From contig NZ_KB900536.1 in the NCBI RefSeq assembly GCF_000378965.1, positions 1,728,052-1,792,051 on the forward strand: DNA of 64,000 nt. The letters are read 5' to 3'. This DNA comes from Thioalkalivibrio thiocyanodenitrificans ARhD 1 (GTDB lineage Bacteria; Pseudomonadota; Gammaproteobacteria; Ectothiorhodospirales; Ectothiorhodospiraceae). A program made the translations under genes and the position numbers. Below are positions 28,813 through 62,871 of this stretch, piece after piece. The number at the start of each line of letters is the position of its first letter. Position 1 is the stretch's first letter. The notes under the pieces are model-generated. The model did no database searches. It was not told where the DNA came from and was given only the letters and a program-made list of their open reading frames with translations.

Positions 28813-31119
28813 TCACAGGGACGCGTAGCGCTTGCGCAGGCGCTGGCGGACGATTTCCGCCGCCGTGTTGAGCACGAAGGTCAGCACCAGCAGCACCAGG
28901 GCGGAGAGAAACAGCACCCGGAAGTGGGTGGAGCCCACCGCCGTCTCCGGCAGCTCCACGGCGATGTTGGCGGCCAGCGTGCGCATGCCCTCGAACAGGT
29001 TGAAGTTCACGATGGGGCTGTTGCCCGAGGCCATGAGCACGATCATGGTCTCGCCCACGGCGCGGCCGAAGCCGATCATCACCGCCGAGAAGATGCCGGG
29101 GCTGGCCGTGGGCAGCACCACGCCCACCACCGTCTGCCACGGGGTGGCGCCCAGGGCCAGGGAACCCTGGGTGAGATGCCTGGGCACGTTGAACACCGCA
29201 TCCTCGGCAATGGAGAAGATGGTCGGGATCACCGCGAAGCCCATCGCCAGGCCCACGATGAGCGCGTTGCGCTGGTCGTAGGGGATGCCCACATCGGTGA
29301 GCCACTGGCGCATGGAGCCGTCGAAGAAGGCCACCTCGATCCAGGGGCTGGCGCTCACCGCCACCCAACCCAGCAGCAGCATCACCGGTACCAGCAACGC
29401 ACCCTCCCAGCCCGGCGGCACACGATGGCGGATCTGGCCCGGGAGGCGGGTCCAGCCGTAGCCGAAGGCCAGCATACCCAAGGGCAGGAGCACCAGCACG
29501 GTCACGAGGATCGGCAGGTTGTTCTCGATGTAGGGGGCCAGCCAGATGCCGGCGAGGAAGCCGAGAATCACGGTGGGCAGCGCCTCCATCAGTTCGATGG
29601 AGGGCTTGACGATGCGCCGCATGGGACCGGCCATGAAGTAGGCCGTGTAGATGGCGCCCATGATGGCCAGCGGCGTGGCCAGCAGCATGGCGAACAGGGC
29701 AGCCTTGAGTGTGCCCACGGTCAGGGGCACCAGGGACAGCTTGGACTCAAAGGCGTCGTCAGCGGAGGAAGACTGCCAGATGAACTCCGGCTGGGCACGC
29801 CCCTCGTACCAGACCCTGCCCCACAGCCCGCTCAGGGAGGTCTGGGGATGGGGGTTGTCGATGGCCAGCACCCGCAGCACCTCGGAGCCCTCGCTCTTGA
29901 CCAGGGCCATGCGGTTGATGGGCGAGATGGCGATGCGGTTGACGGGCCACTGCGCGACGGGCAGGAACTTCAACGACACGCTGGAGGTGGCGTAGTGCAG
30001 TCCCACGGTACCGGTGGCATCCCCGGCCAGGAAGCCCTTGCGGGTGTACTCCGGCTCGATGAAGGTGATGGCGCCGGCATGGTCGCGGAAGCCGCGGATA
30101 CGAGTCAGGTTGACCTCGTTGGTGGCATCGTCACGCACCAGCATCCACTGATTCAGGCTGCCGTCGGAACCGCCCACGATCAGGGAGCGGGAGCCCACCA
30201 GGAACTGCGCGACGGTGACCGTGACGCCTTCCGGCACCAGGGTCACCCGCTCCACCAAACGTGGCTGGTTGCGGTCCACGATATCGAAGTGAAACAGCGT
30301 GCCCTGATCGTCGATGGCGAACAGGTCGCGCAGGGATTCATTGACCAGCAACTGGCGCACCGGGCGATTGATGGAGGGCAGCGCATAGTCCTGACGGCTG
30401 ATCTGCACCGCGCCGGTCATCATGTTGGTACGGGTGGTGAACAGGGCCATGGCGATCTCGCCCCCGCGGGTGCCGCCGGCCACCACGAAGCCGCCGCGCC
30501 CCTCGACCACGGTGAGCGCCGAATAGCCCTCGGCAGTGCCGTCGCCGATCCGCATGGGCTCCTCACCCAGCGGGAAGCTCAGCCTGGGAGTGATGACGCG
30601 CACGCCCTCTCGGGGGAAACTCTGCTGGTACTCCACCTTCAGCGGCAGCACCGAGCCGTCGGTGAAGCCATATACGAACAGGCTCCGCCTGCTCTCGGAG
30701 CGACCAAACGCATTGATGGACTCGCCTTCCGGAATCGTCACCTGCTCCCGGAACAGGATGCGGCCATCGGCGGAGGAGAAGAAGGTGATGGCGCCGGATT
30801 CGGAAAAACGGCCGCCGATTTCCTCGAAGCGGTCCAGGGTGAGATGCACGGTGGGGGCCGGGGCCTCGTCACCGGGCACGGAGATCTCTATGCCCACCTC
30901 CATGCTCACAGGCTTGAGCAGGGGGAAGGTCTCGTAGAAAAGATAAAAGAAGATCAGCGCCAGGGCGAAGATCACGCCGAGGCCGGCCGCGCCCACGCCG
31001 TAGAGCGAGACACCATCCCGGATGCCGCGGATCTTGCGCAGCTTTTCGCGACGTTCCGCGCTGGGCAGGAGGGATGCGGGCGGGGCAGTCTGTTCAGGCG
31101 CGGTCGCCGACATGCTCAT
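28813..31119 (-). CDS. pstC: Phosphate ABC transporter permease PstC (long form)
   Basis: A 768-residue permease. After a first membrane helix near residues 40-62, a large periplasmic domain of about 380 residues has repeated beta-strand blades (for example LFVYGFTDGSVLPLKV and LIVGGSDGSLNQW), suggesting a propeller-like fold. The C-terminal part is the ABC permease with RHLTQGSLALGATPWQT as its coupling loop. It sits between pstS and pstA. Confidence 0.94.
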   Translation of the reverse strand: MSMSATAPEQTAPPASLLPSAERREKLRKIRGIRDGVSLYGVGAAGLGVIFALALIFFYLFYETFPLLKPVSMEVGIEISVPGDEAPAPTVHLTLDRFEEIGGRFSESGAITFFSSADGRILFREQVTIPEGESINAFGRSESRRSLFVYGFTDGSVLPLKVEYQQSFPREGVRVITPRLSFPLGEEPMRIGDGTAEGYSALTVVEGRGGFVVAGGTRGGEIAMALFTTRTNMMTGAVQISRQDYALPSINRPVRQLLVNESLRDLFAIDDQGTLFHFDIVDRNQPRLVERVTLVPEGVTVTVAQFLVGSRSLIVGGSDGSLNQWMLVRDDATNEVNLTRIRGFRDHAGAITFIEPEYTRKGFLAGDATGTVGLHYATSSVSLKFLPVAQWPVNRIAISPINRMALVKSEGSEVLRVLAIDNPHPQTSLSGLWGRVWYEGRAQPEFIWQSSSADDAFESKLSLVPLTVGTLKAALFAMLLATPLAIMGAIYTAYFMAGPMRRIVKPSIELMEALPTVILGFLAGIWLAPYIENNLPILVTVLVLLPLGMLAFGYGWTRLPGQIRHRVPPGWEGALLVPVMLLLGWVAVSASPWIEVAFFDGSMRQWLTDVGIPYDQRNALIVGLAMGFAVIPTIFSIAEDAVFNVPRHLTQGSLALGATPWQTVVGVVLPTASPGIFSAVMIGFGRAVGETMIVLMASGNSPIVNFNLFEGMRTLAANIAVELPETAVGSTHFRVLFLSALVLLVLTFVLNTAAEIVRQRLRKRYASL

Positions 31120-31157
31120 CTATCCTGATGGTTTGGAACCGATCTTTTGCACTGCCC

Positions 31158-31198
31158 AAAAAAGGCAGGACCCCGCAGCCGTGGCTGCGCGGTCCTGC
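31158..31198 (-). terminator. Attenuating terminator between pstS and pstC
   Basis: On the minus strand, two near-perfect 16-nt arms (GCAGGACC-G-CGCAGCC and GGCTGCG-G-GGTCCTGC) flank a 2-nt loop and are followed by TTTTTT. Position between the pstS stop and pstC start suggests partial termination, so that the binding protein is made in excess over the membrane subunits. Confidence 0.85.
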
Positions 31199-31218
31199 TG
31201 CTTGGGACCGGAGCACTC

Positions 31219-32190
31219 TCACTCCAGACCCTTTTCCTTGCGGAAGCGCTCGACCAGGGGGGCAGGCAGGGTCACGTAGCCATCACGATGGACCACTTCC
31301 TGTCCTTGCTTGGAGAGCACCATTCTGAAGAACTCGCGCTCCAGCGGGTTCCAGCCGGTGTTGGGGTTACGGTTGCCATAGACGTACAGGAAACGGGCCA
31401 ACGGATACTCTCCGGAGGCGGCGTTCTCAGCGGTCGCCTCCGCGGGGGTCTGACCGTGTTCCTTGGCCAGGGGCACCACGCGCACGCCGGAGGTACGGTA
31501 GCCGATGCCTGAGTAACCGATGCCGTTGATGGTCTGCTCAACACCGCGCACCACGGCGGAGGAACCCGGTTGCTCGTTGACCGTGGAGCGGAAGTCACCG
31601 CCGCACAGGGCGTGTTCCTTGAAGTAGCCATAGGTACCCGACACGGCATTGCGGCCATAGATGGTGATGTCACGATTGGCCCAGGCGCCGGTCAGACCCA
31701 CCTGGCCCCACGTGGTGATGTCCTGGCCGAAACCGCAGGAACGGGTGGCGGAGAAGATCGCGTCCACCTGGGGAATGGACAGGCCCTCGATGGGATTGTC
31801 CTTGTTCACGTACACGGCGATCATGTCCACGGCCACGGGCACGTCGGTGGCGGGGTAGCCATAGCGGTCCTCGAAGGCGCGCATTTCGGAATCGCGCATC
31901 GGGCGGCTCATGGGACCGAAGTTGGAGGTCCCCTCGACCAGGGCCGGGGGGGCCGTCGAGGTGCCGGCACCCTGGATCTGCACGGCCACGTTCGGGTAGA
32001 ACTTGGCGAACTCCTCGGCCCACAGGGTCATCAGGTTGTTCAGGGTATCGGAACCGATGGAGGTCAGGTTGCCGGAAATACCCGAAACACGCTGATAGTC
32101 GGGCAGACCCGGGTCGACCTCGGCCTGAACCGTGGCGGCGCCCAGACCGGCGGCAACGATGGCGCCGAAAACAAGACTCTTGTTGAACAT
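31219..32190 (-). CDS. pstS: Phosphate-binding periplasmic protein PstS
   Basis: A 323-residue PstS-like protein with a cleavable signal peptide ([20 protein letters not shown], then VQA cleavage region). Phosphate-site motifs are [31 protein letters not shown] and [20 protein letters not shown] 32190 has AGAGGAA 8 nt upstream; longer open frames upstream are non-coding. A candidate Pho box lies about 90 bp upstream. Confidence 0.95.
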
Positions 32191-32264
32191 GATGGAAATT
32201 CCTCTGATTTGAACAGGTTCACGACTCGACTCACCGTGTGCAGGACATCGCGAATCGTGATGCA

Positions 32265-32309
32265 GAGTATCCGGGCCTCGTATGACAAGGATGTGAACGA
32301 CCCGTGACA
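32265..32309 (-). promoter_or_regulatory. Candidate Pho box and promoter of pstS
   Basis: On the minus strand TGTCAC, GTTCAC and TGTCAT start at exact 11-bp steps (32309, 32298, 32287). This matches the 11-bp direct-repeat design of PhoB sites. GATACT follows about 12 bp later and could be the -10 element, with the last PhoB half-site replacing the -35. Confidence 0.7.
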
Positions 32310-32329
32310 CCCTCATGAAATATCCGGCC

Positions 32330-32887
32330 TCAGCGAAGTCCGGGCACCGGTTGTTGCAGCGGATCATGTGCCACGACGACCGGCGGCGATGCGATGCCGA
32401 GCAGTTCGATCTCAAAGATAAGCGTCTCCTGCGGGCCGATGCGGCCGCTGCCGGTGGCGCCATAGGCAAGATCCGGCGGCAGGACCACGCGCACGTGACT
32501 GCCCACGGGAACCGAGGTCAGCACTTTCTGCCACCCGGGAATGGTGCGTTCCACGGGCACGGTGCCCGGCACGCCCAGGCGGTAGGTGCTGTCGAACAAC
32601 CGGCCATCGGCATGCCAGCCACGGTAATGGACTTCGACCCTGTCATCGGACCCCGGCGTTTCTCCGTCACCGGCGCGCAGCATCTCGACCTGCATGCCGC
32701 CGGGCAGCACCACGACGCCGGGGCGGCCGGCATTGCGCCGCAGGAGTTCGTCACCCTCCTGGCGGTTGAGCTCTGAAAGCAGGGCGCGGTCCTGCGCCTG
32801 CTCCGGGGTCATCCCGACCCCCTGTACCAGCAGGTAGATCCCCGCCAACGCCAGTACACTCAGAGTCAGCACACGTATCATGGTCAC
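32330..32887 (-). CDS. FKBP-type peptidyl-prolyl isomerase, exported
   Basis: A 185-residue protein with an N-terminal hydrophobic signal/anchor ([18 protein letters not shown]) and a C-terminal FKBP domain: [19 protein letters not shown], then [20 protein letters not shown] and [20 protein letters not shown]. It should accelerate proline isomerisation in the periplasm. It overlaps the Sel1-like gene by 4 nt and lies between phoBR and pstS. The nearby Pho box points away from it, towards pstS. Confidence 0.88.
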
Positions 32888-33735
32888 GACTCCGGCTGTT
32901 GCGAGGCCCAGCGCAGCGCCCGGCTGCGCGCCTCGACCAGTTCCGTCTCACTCAGGACCGCCCGATGGTGCTGCTCAAGCCGCCGCCCGAGCCCGTCTTC
33001 ACCGGCAGCGGCCAGCATCGCCCACTTCGCAGACTCCACCGGGTCGACCGCCACCCCCTGGCCCTGCGCGTACATCACCGCCAGCCAGCCCTGCATGCGC
33101 GGATGGCCATGCTCACTGCCATACCTGACATACGGCAGGGCACGATCGTGGTCGACGGGCTGCGTGCCGATCCCTTCCAGATGGATGCGCGCCAGGAAGT
33201 ACGCGGCGACCGGCAGACCCTTGTCGAGCGCCGACTCCAGCAGATCACGCGCCTCGTCCACGCGCTCCGGCGCCTTGCCGCCCAGGGCATCGGCGATCAG
33301 CACCGATGCGAGCGCCACGTTGCCCTCCGGATTTCCGGCATCGATGACGCGCCGGAACCAGCGCTCGGCCAGTTCCCTGTCGCGCACCGTCTCGTCGCCG
33401 CCCAGGTGGAGCCAGCCGAGTTTCAGTGCCAGCTCCCCGGCCCCGGATTCGACGGCACGGGTGTACCAGATCACCGCCAGAGGCAGGCTCACCTCCACCC
33501 CATGGCCCAGCTCATGGATCCAACCCAGGCGGGCCATTGCCGTCGGCGAGCCGTCCCGCGCGGCGTCGGCCAACAGTTCACGGACCGCGCCCCAGTCGAC
33601 AGGCTGACGCTCCATGTGGCGGTGCGCGGCGATTTCGGCCGGATGAAGCCCCTCCACCAGGGGCTGTGCGGCCGGCGGGGCTGCCCAGAACAGCAGCACG
33701 AGGAGCGCGAAGGAAGGCAGGCGTCTGCAAGTCAT
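32884..33735 (-). CDS. Sel1-like repeat protein, exported
   Basis: A 283-residue protein with a signal peptide (LPSFALLVLLFWAAPPAAQ) and five or so Sel1/TPR-like repeats, for example AMARLGWIHELGHGVEVSLP, NVALASVLIADALGG and AAYFLARIHLEGIGT. It is probably a periplasmic interaction scaffold. ATG 33735 gives a normal signal peptide. The longer frame to 33792 overlaps phoR and adds charged residues before the signal. It follows phoR closely, suggesting a phoBR-Sel1-FKBP transcript. Confidence 0.8.
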   Translation of the reverse strand: MTCRRLPSFALLVLLFWAAPPAAQPLVEGLHPAEIAAHRHMERQPVDWGAVRELLADAARDGSPTAMARLGWIHELGHGVEVSLPLAVIWYTRAVESGAGELALKLGWLHLGGDETVRDRELAERWFRRVIDAGNPEGNVALASVLIADALGGKAPERVDEARDLLESALDKGLPVAAYFLARIHLEGIGTQPVDHDRALPYVRYGSEHGHPRMQGWLAVMYAQGQGVAVDPVESAKWAMLAAAGEDGLGRRLEQHHRAVLSETELVEARSRALRWASQQPES

Positions 33736-61993: not shown

Positions 61994-62021
61994 GAAAACC
62001 CCGCCTCGGGGGCGGGGTTTT
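61994..62021. terminator. Terminator after the peroxiredoxin gene
   Basis: AAAACCCCGCC, loop TCGGG, GGCGGGGTTTT: a perfect 11-bp stem with T- and A-tracts on either side, 27 bp past the stop of the minus-strand peroxiredoxin gene and upstream of the CDGSH gene. Confidence 0.9.
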
Positions 62022-62047
62022 CATCCTCGCGTGCCGGAACGATCCGG

Positions 62048-62653
62048 CTATTCCATGGATGGGTTCCAGACCTTCCAGACCTTCCCGACCAGGTCCGGCC
62101 CCGGCTTGAGGGTTGGCTTGCCCGGCTCCCAGCCGGCGGGGCAGGCCTCTTTGCCTCCGGTAGCACGTATGTGCTGGAACGCCTGAATCTGACGTATGGT
62201 CTCGGCAAGTTTGCGTCCGACCGGCGGTGTCATCACCTCCATGGCCTGGATCACGCCATCGGGATCAATGATGAAGCGGCCGCGGAGTTCCACCCCCTGA
62301 TTTTCGTCCCAGCACCCGTACGCGCGACCGACATGACCTGCCTGGTCGGCGACCATGTGGAAGGGCACGCCCCCTTCCACCATTTTGTCCAACTCCTCCT
62401 CATTCCAGATCTTGTGGACGAAATGACTGTCCACGCTGACCGAGATGACTTCGACACCCAGATCCTGCAGCTTCTGATAGTTTGCGGCGACCGCCGACAC
62501 TTCAGTAGCTCAGACGAAGGTGAAATCACCTGGATAGAAACAAAGCATCACCCACTTGCCCGCATACTCCGACAGCGTCACGCTGGTGAAACCGCCCTTG
62601 TAATGGGCGGGTGCGGTGAAGTCGGGCGCCTTCTGTCCGACACGCACACTCAT
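62048..62653 (-). CDS. Selenocysteine-containing peroxiredoxin (AhpC/Prx type)
   Basis: A 201-residue 2-Cys-type peroxiredoxin if the in-frame TGA at 62512-62510 is read as selenocysteine. The sequence before it is [10 protein letters not shown] and after it ATEVSAVA, exactly where Prx enzymes have FTFVCPTE; codon 48 is thus the peroxidatic residue. The resolving Cys171 is kept in [23 protein letters not shown] 62653 ([12 protein letters not shown]) has GAGG 8 nt upstream. Both halves are conserved with no other defect, which argues against a pseudogene. It should reduce peroxides with very high reactivity, using a thioredoxin or AhpF-like donor. A SECIS-like hairpin follows the TGA. Confidence 0.88.
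62485..62496 (-). promoter_or_regulatory. Candidate bacterial SECIS hairpin
   Basis: In the mRNA, CGGC-GGUC-GCCG forms a 4-bp stem with a GGUC loop. The loop starts 17 nt after the UGA, nearly the same place as the GGUC loop of the E. coli fdhF SECIS. Lower-stem pairing is weak, which is common in bacterial SECIS elements. Confidence 0.6.
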
Positions 62654-62871
62654 CCTGATCACCTCTTCTCTGCTGGTTGATTCGCCTGACCCGGGGGCAT
62701 CAGACGGCTGCCCGCCGGCAACCGTGCCGGATACCCGGGCACACGTCAGTGGTTCATCTGCCATGACAGGTCCTCCCGACTGGCGTCGTTGACACTCATC
62801 ACCTTAACCTTAATAGTTGGCACCTGCGCCCGCGTCAACCAGACAGCAGAAACGCACAGGGCCCGCGGTAT

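Follow-up and report, generated by a model that had tools for sequence, protein, structure and literature searches.

The Sec peroxiredoxin of Peptoclostridium (Eubacterium) acidaminophilum is cited (Sohling et al. 2001) in passages of the reviews PMC9312934, PMC8533274, and PMC13188914, and the PxxxTxxU motif of PrxU used in this work is taken from a passage of the last of these. Sec peroxiredoxins with a TxxU motif are also known from genome and metagenome surveys, as described in passages of PMC1088965 and PMC1794560. The window, i.e., the whole stretch of 64,000 nucleotides of Thioalkalivibrio thiocyanodenitrificans ARhD 1 DNA analysed here, carries a gene of the PrxU family, which has already been named and described. 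As a selenoprotein, its product is one more member of that family. The analysis presented below concerns the reading of its UGA codon, its translation starts, and the thiols available to the selenocysteine.

The prxU Gene and Its Relatives

The following coding features were located:

62048–62764, minus strand: long coding region of prxU, 238 amino acids plus stop, composed of a flexible arm (residues 1–37) and the peroxiredoxin core
62048–62653, minus strand: short coding region of prxU from an internal ATG, 201 amino acids plus stop
62510–62512, minus strand: UGA codon at the peroxidatic position within TFVU, Sec48 in the short and Sec85 in the long numbering; TGA in 97 of 98 family loci

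The initial annotation had noticed a single TGA in an otherwise open frame. Both the sequence and the translation bear this out: the codon (62512–62510, minus strand) lies between FTFV and ATE, and reading continues to the stop at 62050–62048. With the TGA read as a residue, the product scores 374.1 bits against NCBIfam NF040737 (peroxi_PrxU; cut-off 270), and its 197.1 bits against the AhpC profile TIGR03137 stay below the cut-off of 272. The protein is of the AhpC/Prx1 fold, with Pfam matches to AhpC-TSA, Redoxin, and 1-cysPrx_C, and the PxxxTxxU motif with the in-frame UGA at the peroxidatic position is found as P-GDF-T-FV-U. Among plasmid records, the best match is prxU of P. acidaminophilum (66% identity over 97% of the query). 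A putative use in peroxide defence follows from membership of the PrxU family. The expectation of two broken genes in the output of a standard caller was right for a mechanical caller, as a plain ORF listing cuts prxU into 62510–62764 and 62048–62500, but not for the two annotated relatives examined, whose CDS spans the TGA.

Relatives were collected in several steps. A scan of species genomes yielded at least 481 confirmed relatives, of which the best 80 were kept, a selection in which Cys forms may be under-sampled. Together with three loci of the window's own bacterial family (L025, which is the window's locus, L026, and L027) these form the first 83 loci, and TGA occupies the Sec codon in all 83. 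The plasmid loci L140 and L141 likewise carry TGA, which makes 85. In addition, 400 genomes were sampled from the phylum to which G449 belongs (titled Anaerolineae and carrying L061). A search of these at E 1e-62 gave 16 matches in 14 genomes: three repeats, 12 new TGA loci, and one locus with TGC, L157, which also exceeds the NF040737 cut-off. The total is thus TGA in 97 and TGC in one of 98 distinct loci, the window's included, in a set that contains the best 80 of 481. The named records in this set represent 13 phyla, and 26 loci are without assignment. MAG bins can contain foreign contigs; L056, labelled Phycisphaerales and 92% identical, may be one.

Since TGA is present in 97 of the 98 distinct loci, a sequencing error in the window is very unlikely. 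The alternation of Cys and Sec expected among homologues was seen in a single case, L157, with all the other loci having TGA. L157, which is devoid of the SECIS, Cys38, and a called arm, may represent a Sec-to-Cys replacement. Its genome, G547, carries a TGA-containing prxU (L145) in addition to this diverged TGC relative.

Translation Starts and the N-Terminal Arm

Two start regions have to be considered:

62772–62777, minus strand: Shine-Dalgarno sequence GGGAGG of the upstream start, 7 nt before the ATG at 62764; −10.3 kcal/mol to the anti-SD
62741–62743, minus strand: arm Cys8 (long numbering) in a TCAR motif, which is GCAR in most relatives
62660–62667, minus strand: Shine-Dalgarno-like sequence AAGAGGTG of the internal start at 62653; −10.1 kcal/mol

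The gene start at 62653 given in the initial annotation calls for correction, as translation of prxU very probably begins at 62764. The NF040737 match runs upstream of 62653, to about 62746, and a motif of the [GS]C[AG]R type is found repeatedly in the in-frame upstream sequence of the relatives. To call an arm, a start was sought near this motif and the best-scoring candidate was taken, strong Shine-Dalgarno sites being favoured. An arm of 30–38 codons with a Cys was called in this way in 90 of 98 loci (again a set including the best 80 of 481). All 90 called arms contain the arm Cys by construction, as a Cys was part of the calling pattern; its codons, however, are divided between TGC (46) and TGT (44), which suggests that the residue rather than the DNA is kept. 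No arm was called in L112, L113, L114, L121, L122, L123, L125, and L157. In L125, the title of which mentions fivefold coverage, part of the arm motif is present and the Cys there is absent.

In 97 of the 98 loci, all but L065, the Shine-Dalgarno energy at the internal ATG or GTG reaches −6 or better; among the other in-frame ATG codons of the core in the first 85 loci, 89 of 472 do so. When synonymous codons were resampled, the energy summed over 85 loci was −790 kcal/mol observed versus −474 kcal/mol expected, although individually 21 of the 85 loci reached P 0.05 (median P 0.17). The evidence for the internal Shine-Dalgarno site is therefore collective and not per-locus, and the loci are related, so the counts are non-independent. 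The lowest degree of structure in the scanned region falls just before the internal start, which would fit a plain linker as well. Judged from these sequence comparisons, we lean towards the use of both starts, which would give a long and a short form of PrxU of about 26 and 22 kDa.

Translation from the upstream start alone seems rather unlikely, with the internal AAGGAG being then either a by-product of a conserved Lys-Glu or an element with a pausing-type role. It would agree with the mostly non-significant per-locus tests, with the listed CDS of both annotated relatives, which begins at the corresponding upstream site, and with the 59 Lys-Glu pairs encoded by the last seven codons before the internal start in 85 loci. 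Nevertheless, these pairs use AAG in 58/59 and GAG in 56/59 cases, far from the usage of the same genes (AAG 576/1109, GAG 451/1045), and other codon pairs at this place often retain a purine-rich site. Moreover, the mean Shine-Dalgarno energy is strongest at the internal-start offset among 184 tested, with the overlapping offsets +3 and +6 close behind, and an internal-type site is retained in all seven TGA loci for which no arm was called.

The opposite possibility, translation from the internal start alone with an untranslated leader upstream of it, is highly improbable. These seven of the 97 TGA loci, in which the internal start is the only one found, speak in its favour. The arm motif, however, varies like protein-coding sequence: differing codon pairs are synonymous in 57% of cases in the seven-codon motif as opposed to 8% in the linker (91% in a core stretch). 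The two-codon usage at the pattern-required Cys also argues against a leader, as do the 83 of 90 armed loci in which the upstream Shine-Dalgarno energy is −6 or better, the best candidate start having been chosen in each.

Searches of the open-licence literature, outside which the 2001 PrxU paper lies, turned up nothing relevant on Sec peroxiredoxins with two starts or an N-terminal resolving Cys. Within the literature searched, the two putative conserved starts combined with the arm Cys thus appear to be unreported; the claim of novelty for the arm is restricted because the NF040737 profile already includes the arm region. Confirmation of the two conserved starts and of the arm Cys would alter the way in which PrxU is expressed and assayed, as a construct starting from the internal ATG would be without a conserved thiol.

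Candidate Resolving Thiols

In general peroxiredoxin chemistry, the peroxidatic residue attacks the peroxide; with Sec in this place, a thiol then resolves the selenenic acid formed, and the enzyme is reduced by thioredoxin. Besides the arm Cys, two thiols of the core are relevant:

62540–62542, minus strand: Cys38 in the short numbering (Cys75 in the long), ten residues before Sec
62141–62143, minus strand: Cys171 in the short numbering, at the classical C-terminal resolving Cys position; not general in the family

Cys38 is a Cys in 96 of 98 loci and Phe in L123 and L157. In alignment A1, with 55 rows chosen among armed loci, arm Cys8 and Cys75 are the invariant Cys columns apart from Sec. 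The statement that the resolving Cys171 is kept applies to the window protein but not to most relatives, as 23 of the 98 loci examined, which include the best 80 of 481, carry a Cys at this position. Four rows outside the Cys171 pattern (L098, L123, L130 with Thr, and L157) were counted here as non-Cys; L157 has ATPAC at this site, a Thr with a Cys three residues on.

A replacement of the arm by Cys171 was considered and is statistically unsupported, the two showing no complementarity (Fisher p 0.35). Of the seven TGA loci in which no arm was called, three have Cys171 and four do not, and neither element is present in L112–L114 and L123. Both the armless loci and the lack of complementarity indicate that the arm Cys is not indispensable. 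Across the 98 loci, the arm Cys and Cys38 are commoner thiols than Cys171, which makes them candidate partners of Sec. That the arm Cys acts as the resolving thiol is conceivable, if somewhat doubtful.

The AF2 model has a mean pLDDT of 82.9 with a confident core, values below 50 being given for residues 1–3, 10–13, and 17–36, which make up most of the arm; the best PDB matches are 2-Cys peroxiredoxins. We tentatively propose a division of roles between products of the two ribosome binding sites. In the long form, the Cys of the disordered arm might resolve in place of the lost C-terminal Cys, forming a Sec-Cys pair of new geometry; the short, one-Sec form might differ in reductant use or regulation. 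If true, selenium-using bacteria of many phyla would adjust how they deal with peroxide through the ratio of long to short form.

The SECIS Hairpin

Downstream of the UGA the RNA may fold into the following elements:

62485–62496, minus strand: SECIS apical hairpin CGGC-GGUC-GCCG, 13 nt after the UGA, indicated by fold and covariation
62463–62515, minus strand: extended SECIS stem-loop around the UGA, −21.8 kcal/mol, z −2.47; covariation covers the apical part only

The GGUC loop had been placed 17 nt after the UGA, and indeed it starts at nucleotide 18, leaving 17 nt between. Folding of the nucleotides after the UGA, suggested as a check, produces the hairpin, but its stability alone is modest: the 42 nt fold has a z of −1.37 (18 of 200 shuffles as stable). 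For the 53 nt fold, four of 200 shuffles were as stable. The evidence beyond chance for the SECIS is conservation and covariation, the fold alone being not striking.

Pair 15–24, counted after the UGA, joins two third codon positions in the apical stem. It is Watson-Crick in 97/97 TGA loci (a set including the best 80 of 481), the 12 newer ones without exception, and occurs in all four forms, which number G-C 52, A-T 24, C-G 5, and T-A 4 in 85 loci. In these 85 loci the normalised mutual information of the pair is 1.0, and over a 70-codon stretch it ranks first among 2080 variable third-position pairs and 5305 variable column pairs. A tree built from 97 protein rows, without L151, shows 15 changes of the pair and likewise 15 on either side taken alone. 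The loop-closing pair 18–21 is G-C in 84 and A-T in 12 of 96 loci, with five changes on the tree. Exceptions in the rest of the stem (85 loci) concern pair 14–25 in one locus, 16–23 in one, and 13–26 in 24.

A selection of 31 loci from the set has 94.1% of its stem cells paired, with 21 cells showing a double change as compared with a shuffled mean of 5.0, a value that none of 500 shuffles reached. The covariation score was lower in every slid version of the stem; two of the five measures, those for double-change pairs and for additional pair types, were not above the shuffles. Where Cys replaces Sec the hairpin is lost, in one case only: L157 (TGC) has A-C at 15–24 and C-C at 18–21. A third-codon pair that is Watson-Crick in 97 genes and lost in the sole Cys relative found makes this an unusually clean bacterial SECIS. 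An Rfam scan gave no relevant match and no catalogued SECIS. Its best match, Pseudomonas sRNA P9 at 61997–62034, was rejected, as it sits on the terminator hairpin after the gene and scores far below the gathering score.

Selenocysteine Machinery and Distribution of PrxU

The absence of selB, selC, and selD from the host genome had been set beforehand as a refutation of the selenoprotein reading, and all three were found. SelB (445.7 bits) and SelD (305.5 bits) exceed their curated cut-offs, and tRNA-Sec (selC; 80.7 bits, above cut-off) follows directly after selB. A selA-like ORF directly upstream of selB was assigned by eye, as was a formate dehydrogenase operon that adjoins selA/selB/tRNA-Sec and contains a second Sec codon, an in-frame TGA in fdhA. 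The fdhA operon and the sel cluster are located at G000:C1:1076002-1084963 (in L055), about 0.7 Mb from prxU. Several matches resembling tRNAs cluster on the second contig, G000:C2, at about 28959–33426 and 116329–120554.

Among 47 genomes of the window's bacterial family, PrxU is over the cut-off in three and selB in eight, and all three PrxU genomes lie within the eight (Fisher p 0.0035). Outside this group, selB is over the cut-off in 14 of 15 PrxU genomes tested, picked from the best 80 of 481 loci, and had no match in the remaining one. PrxU was found in one of 398 genomes sampled from the phylum, namely the window's own.

The family-wide TGA, the covarying hairpin, and the sel genes of the host bear out the selenoprotein reading of the initial annotation, and prxU almost certainly encodes a selenocysteine peroxiredoxin, with the UGA at 62512–62510 predicted to be read as Sec. 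That the TGA is a true stop of a pseudogene or an erroneous base, as the two pieces given by a mechanical ORF caller might imply, has a negligible probability and was rejected in view of the TGA and the Watson-Crick hairpin pair kept across family loci in named records spanning 13 phyla, and of the sel genes and the fdhA Sec codon in the host.

Gene Surroundings

One further element was found at the end of the gene:

61998–62013, minus strand: intrinsic terminator-like hairpin just after prxU (consensus scan)

Because of this hairpin and of a thiC-like ORF upstream (assigned by eye), prxU may be transcribed alone. A search for a sigma-70-like promoter before prxU on the minus strand found none. 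With 3.5 kb searched on each side, no neighbour family occurred in more than seven loci, i.e., no conserved partner gene emerged. A selA homologue (by eye) lies directly downstream of prxU on the same strand in L056, L060, L063, and L071, Thauera and Marinobacter included, which hints that prxU can travel with Sec genes. ATP-binding proteins with ferredoxin-like motifs are encoded upstream of prxU in L083, L141, and L153; on the downstream side (L140), a gene of the Mrp/NBP35 family follows prxU in P. acidaminophilum.

Proposed Mechanism and Comparison with Known Systems

In the model that we propose, the ribosome would read the UGA at 62512–62510 as selenocysteine with the help of SelB, tRNA-Sec, and the SECIS hairpin 13 nt downstream. 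Sec48 would attack the peroxide, a thiol would resolve the selenenic acid, and thioredoxin would reduce the enzyme. The long form would add a flexible arm with a conserved Cys, and the short form would be without it. The arm Cys, together with Cys38, might serve as a resolving or protecting thiol in a family whose examined members mostly lack the classical resolving Cys.

Typical 2-Cys peroxiredoxins, AhpC and Prx1-4 (1we0, 5zte, 7kiz), share the fold and the active-site loop with PrxU. They differ from it in that PrxU has Sec in place of Cys, an extra Cys-bearing arm, and Cys38, and that most PrxU relatives are missing the C-terminal resolving Cys. The surveyed Sec peroxiredoxins (PMC1088965, PMC1794560) have the TxxU motif in common with the window protein (TFVU), although the arm and the second start are absent from the passages describing them. 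P. acidaminophilum PrxU comes from another host lineage and has Ala where the window protein has Cys171, but it shares the TGA at the same codon, an arm with GCARP, an internal AAGGAG start, and the same SECIS plan.
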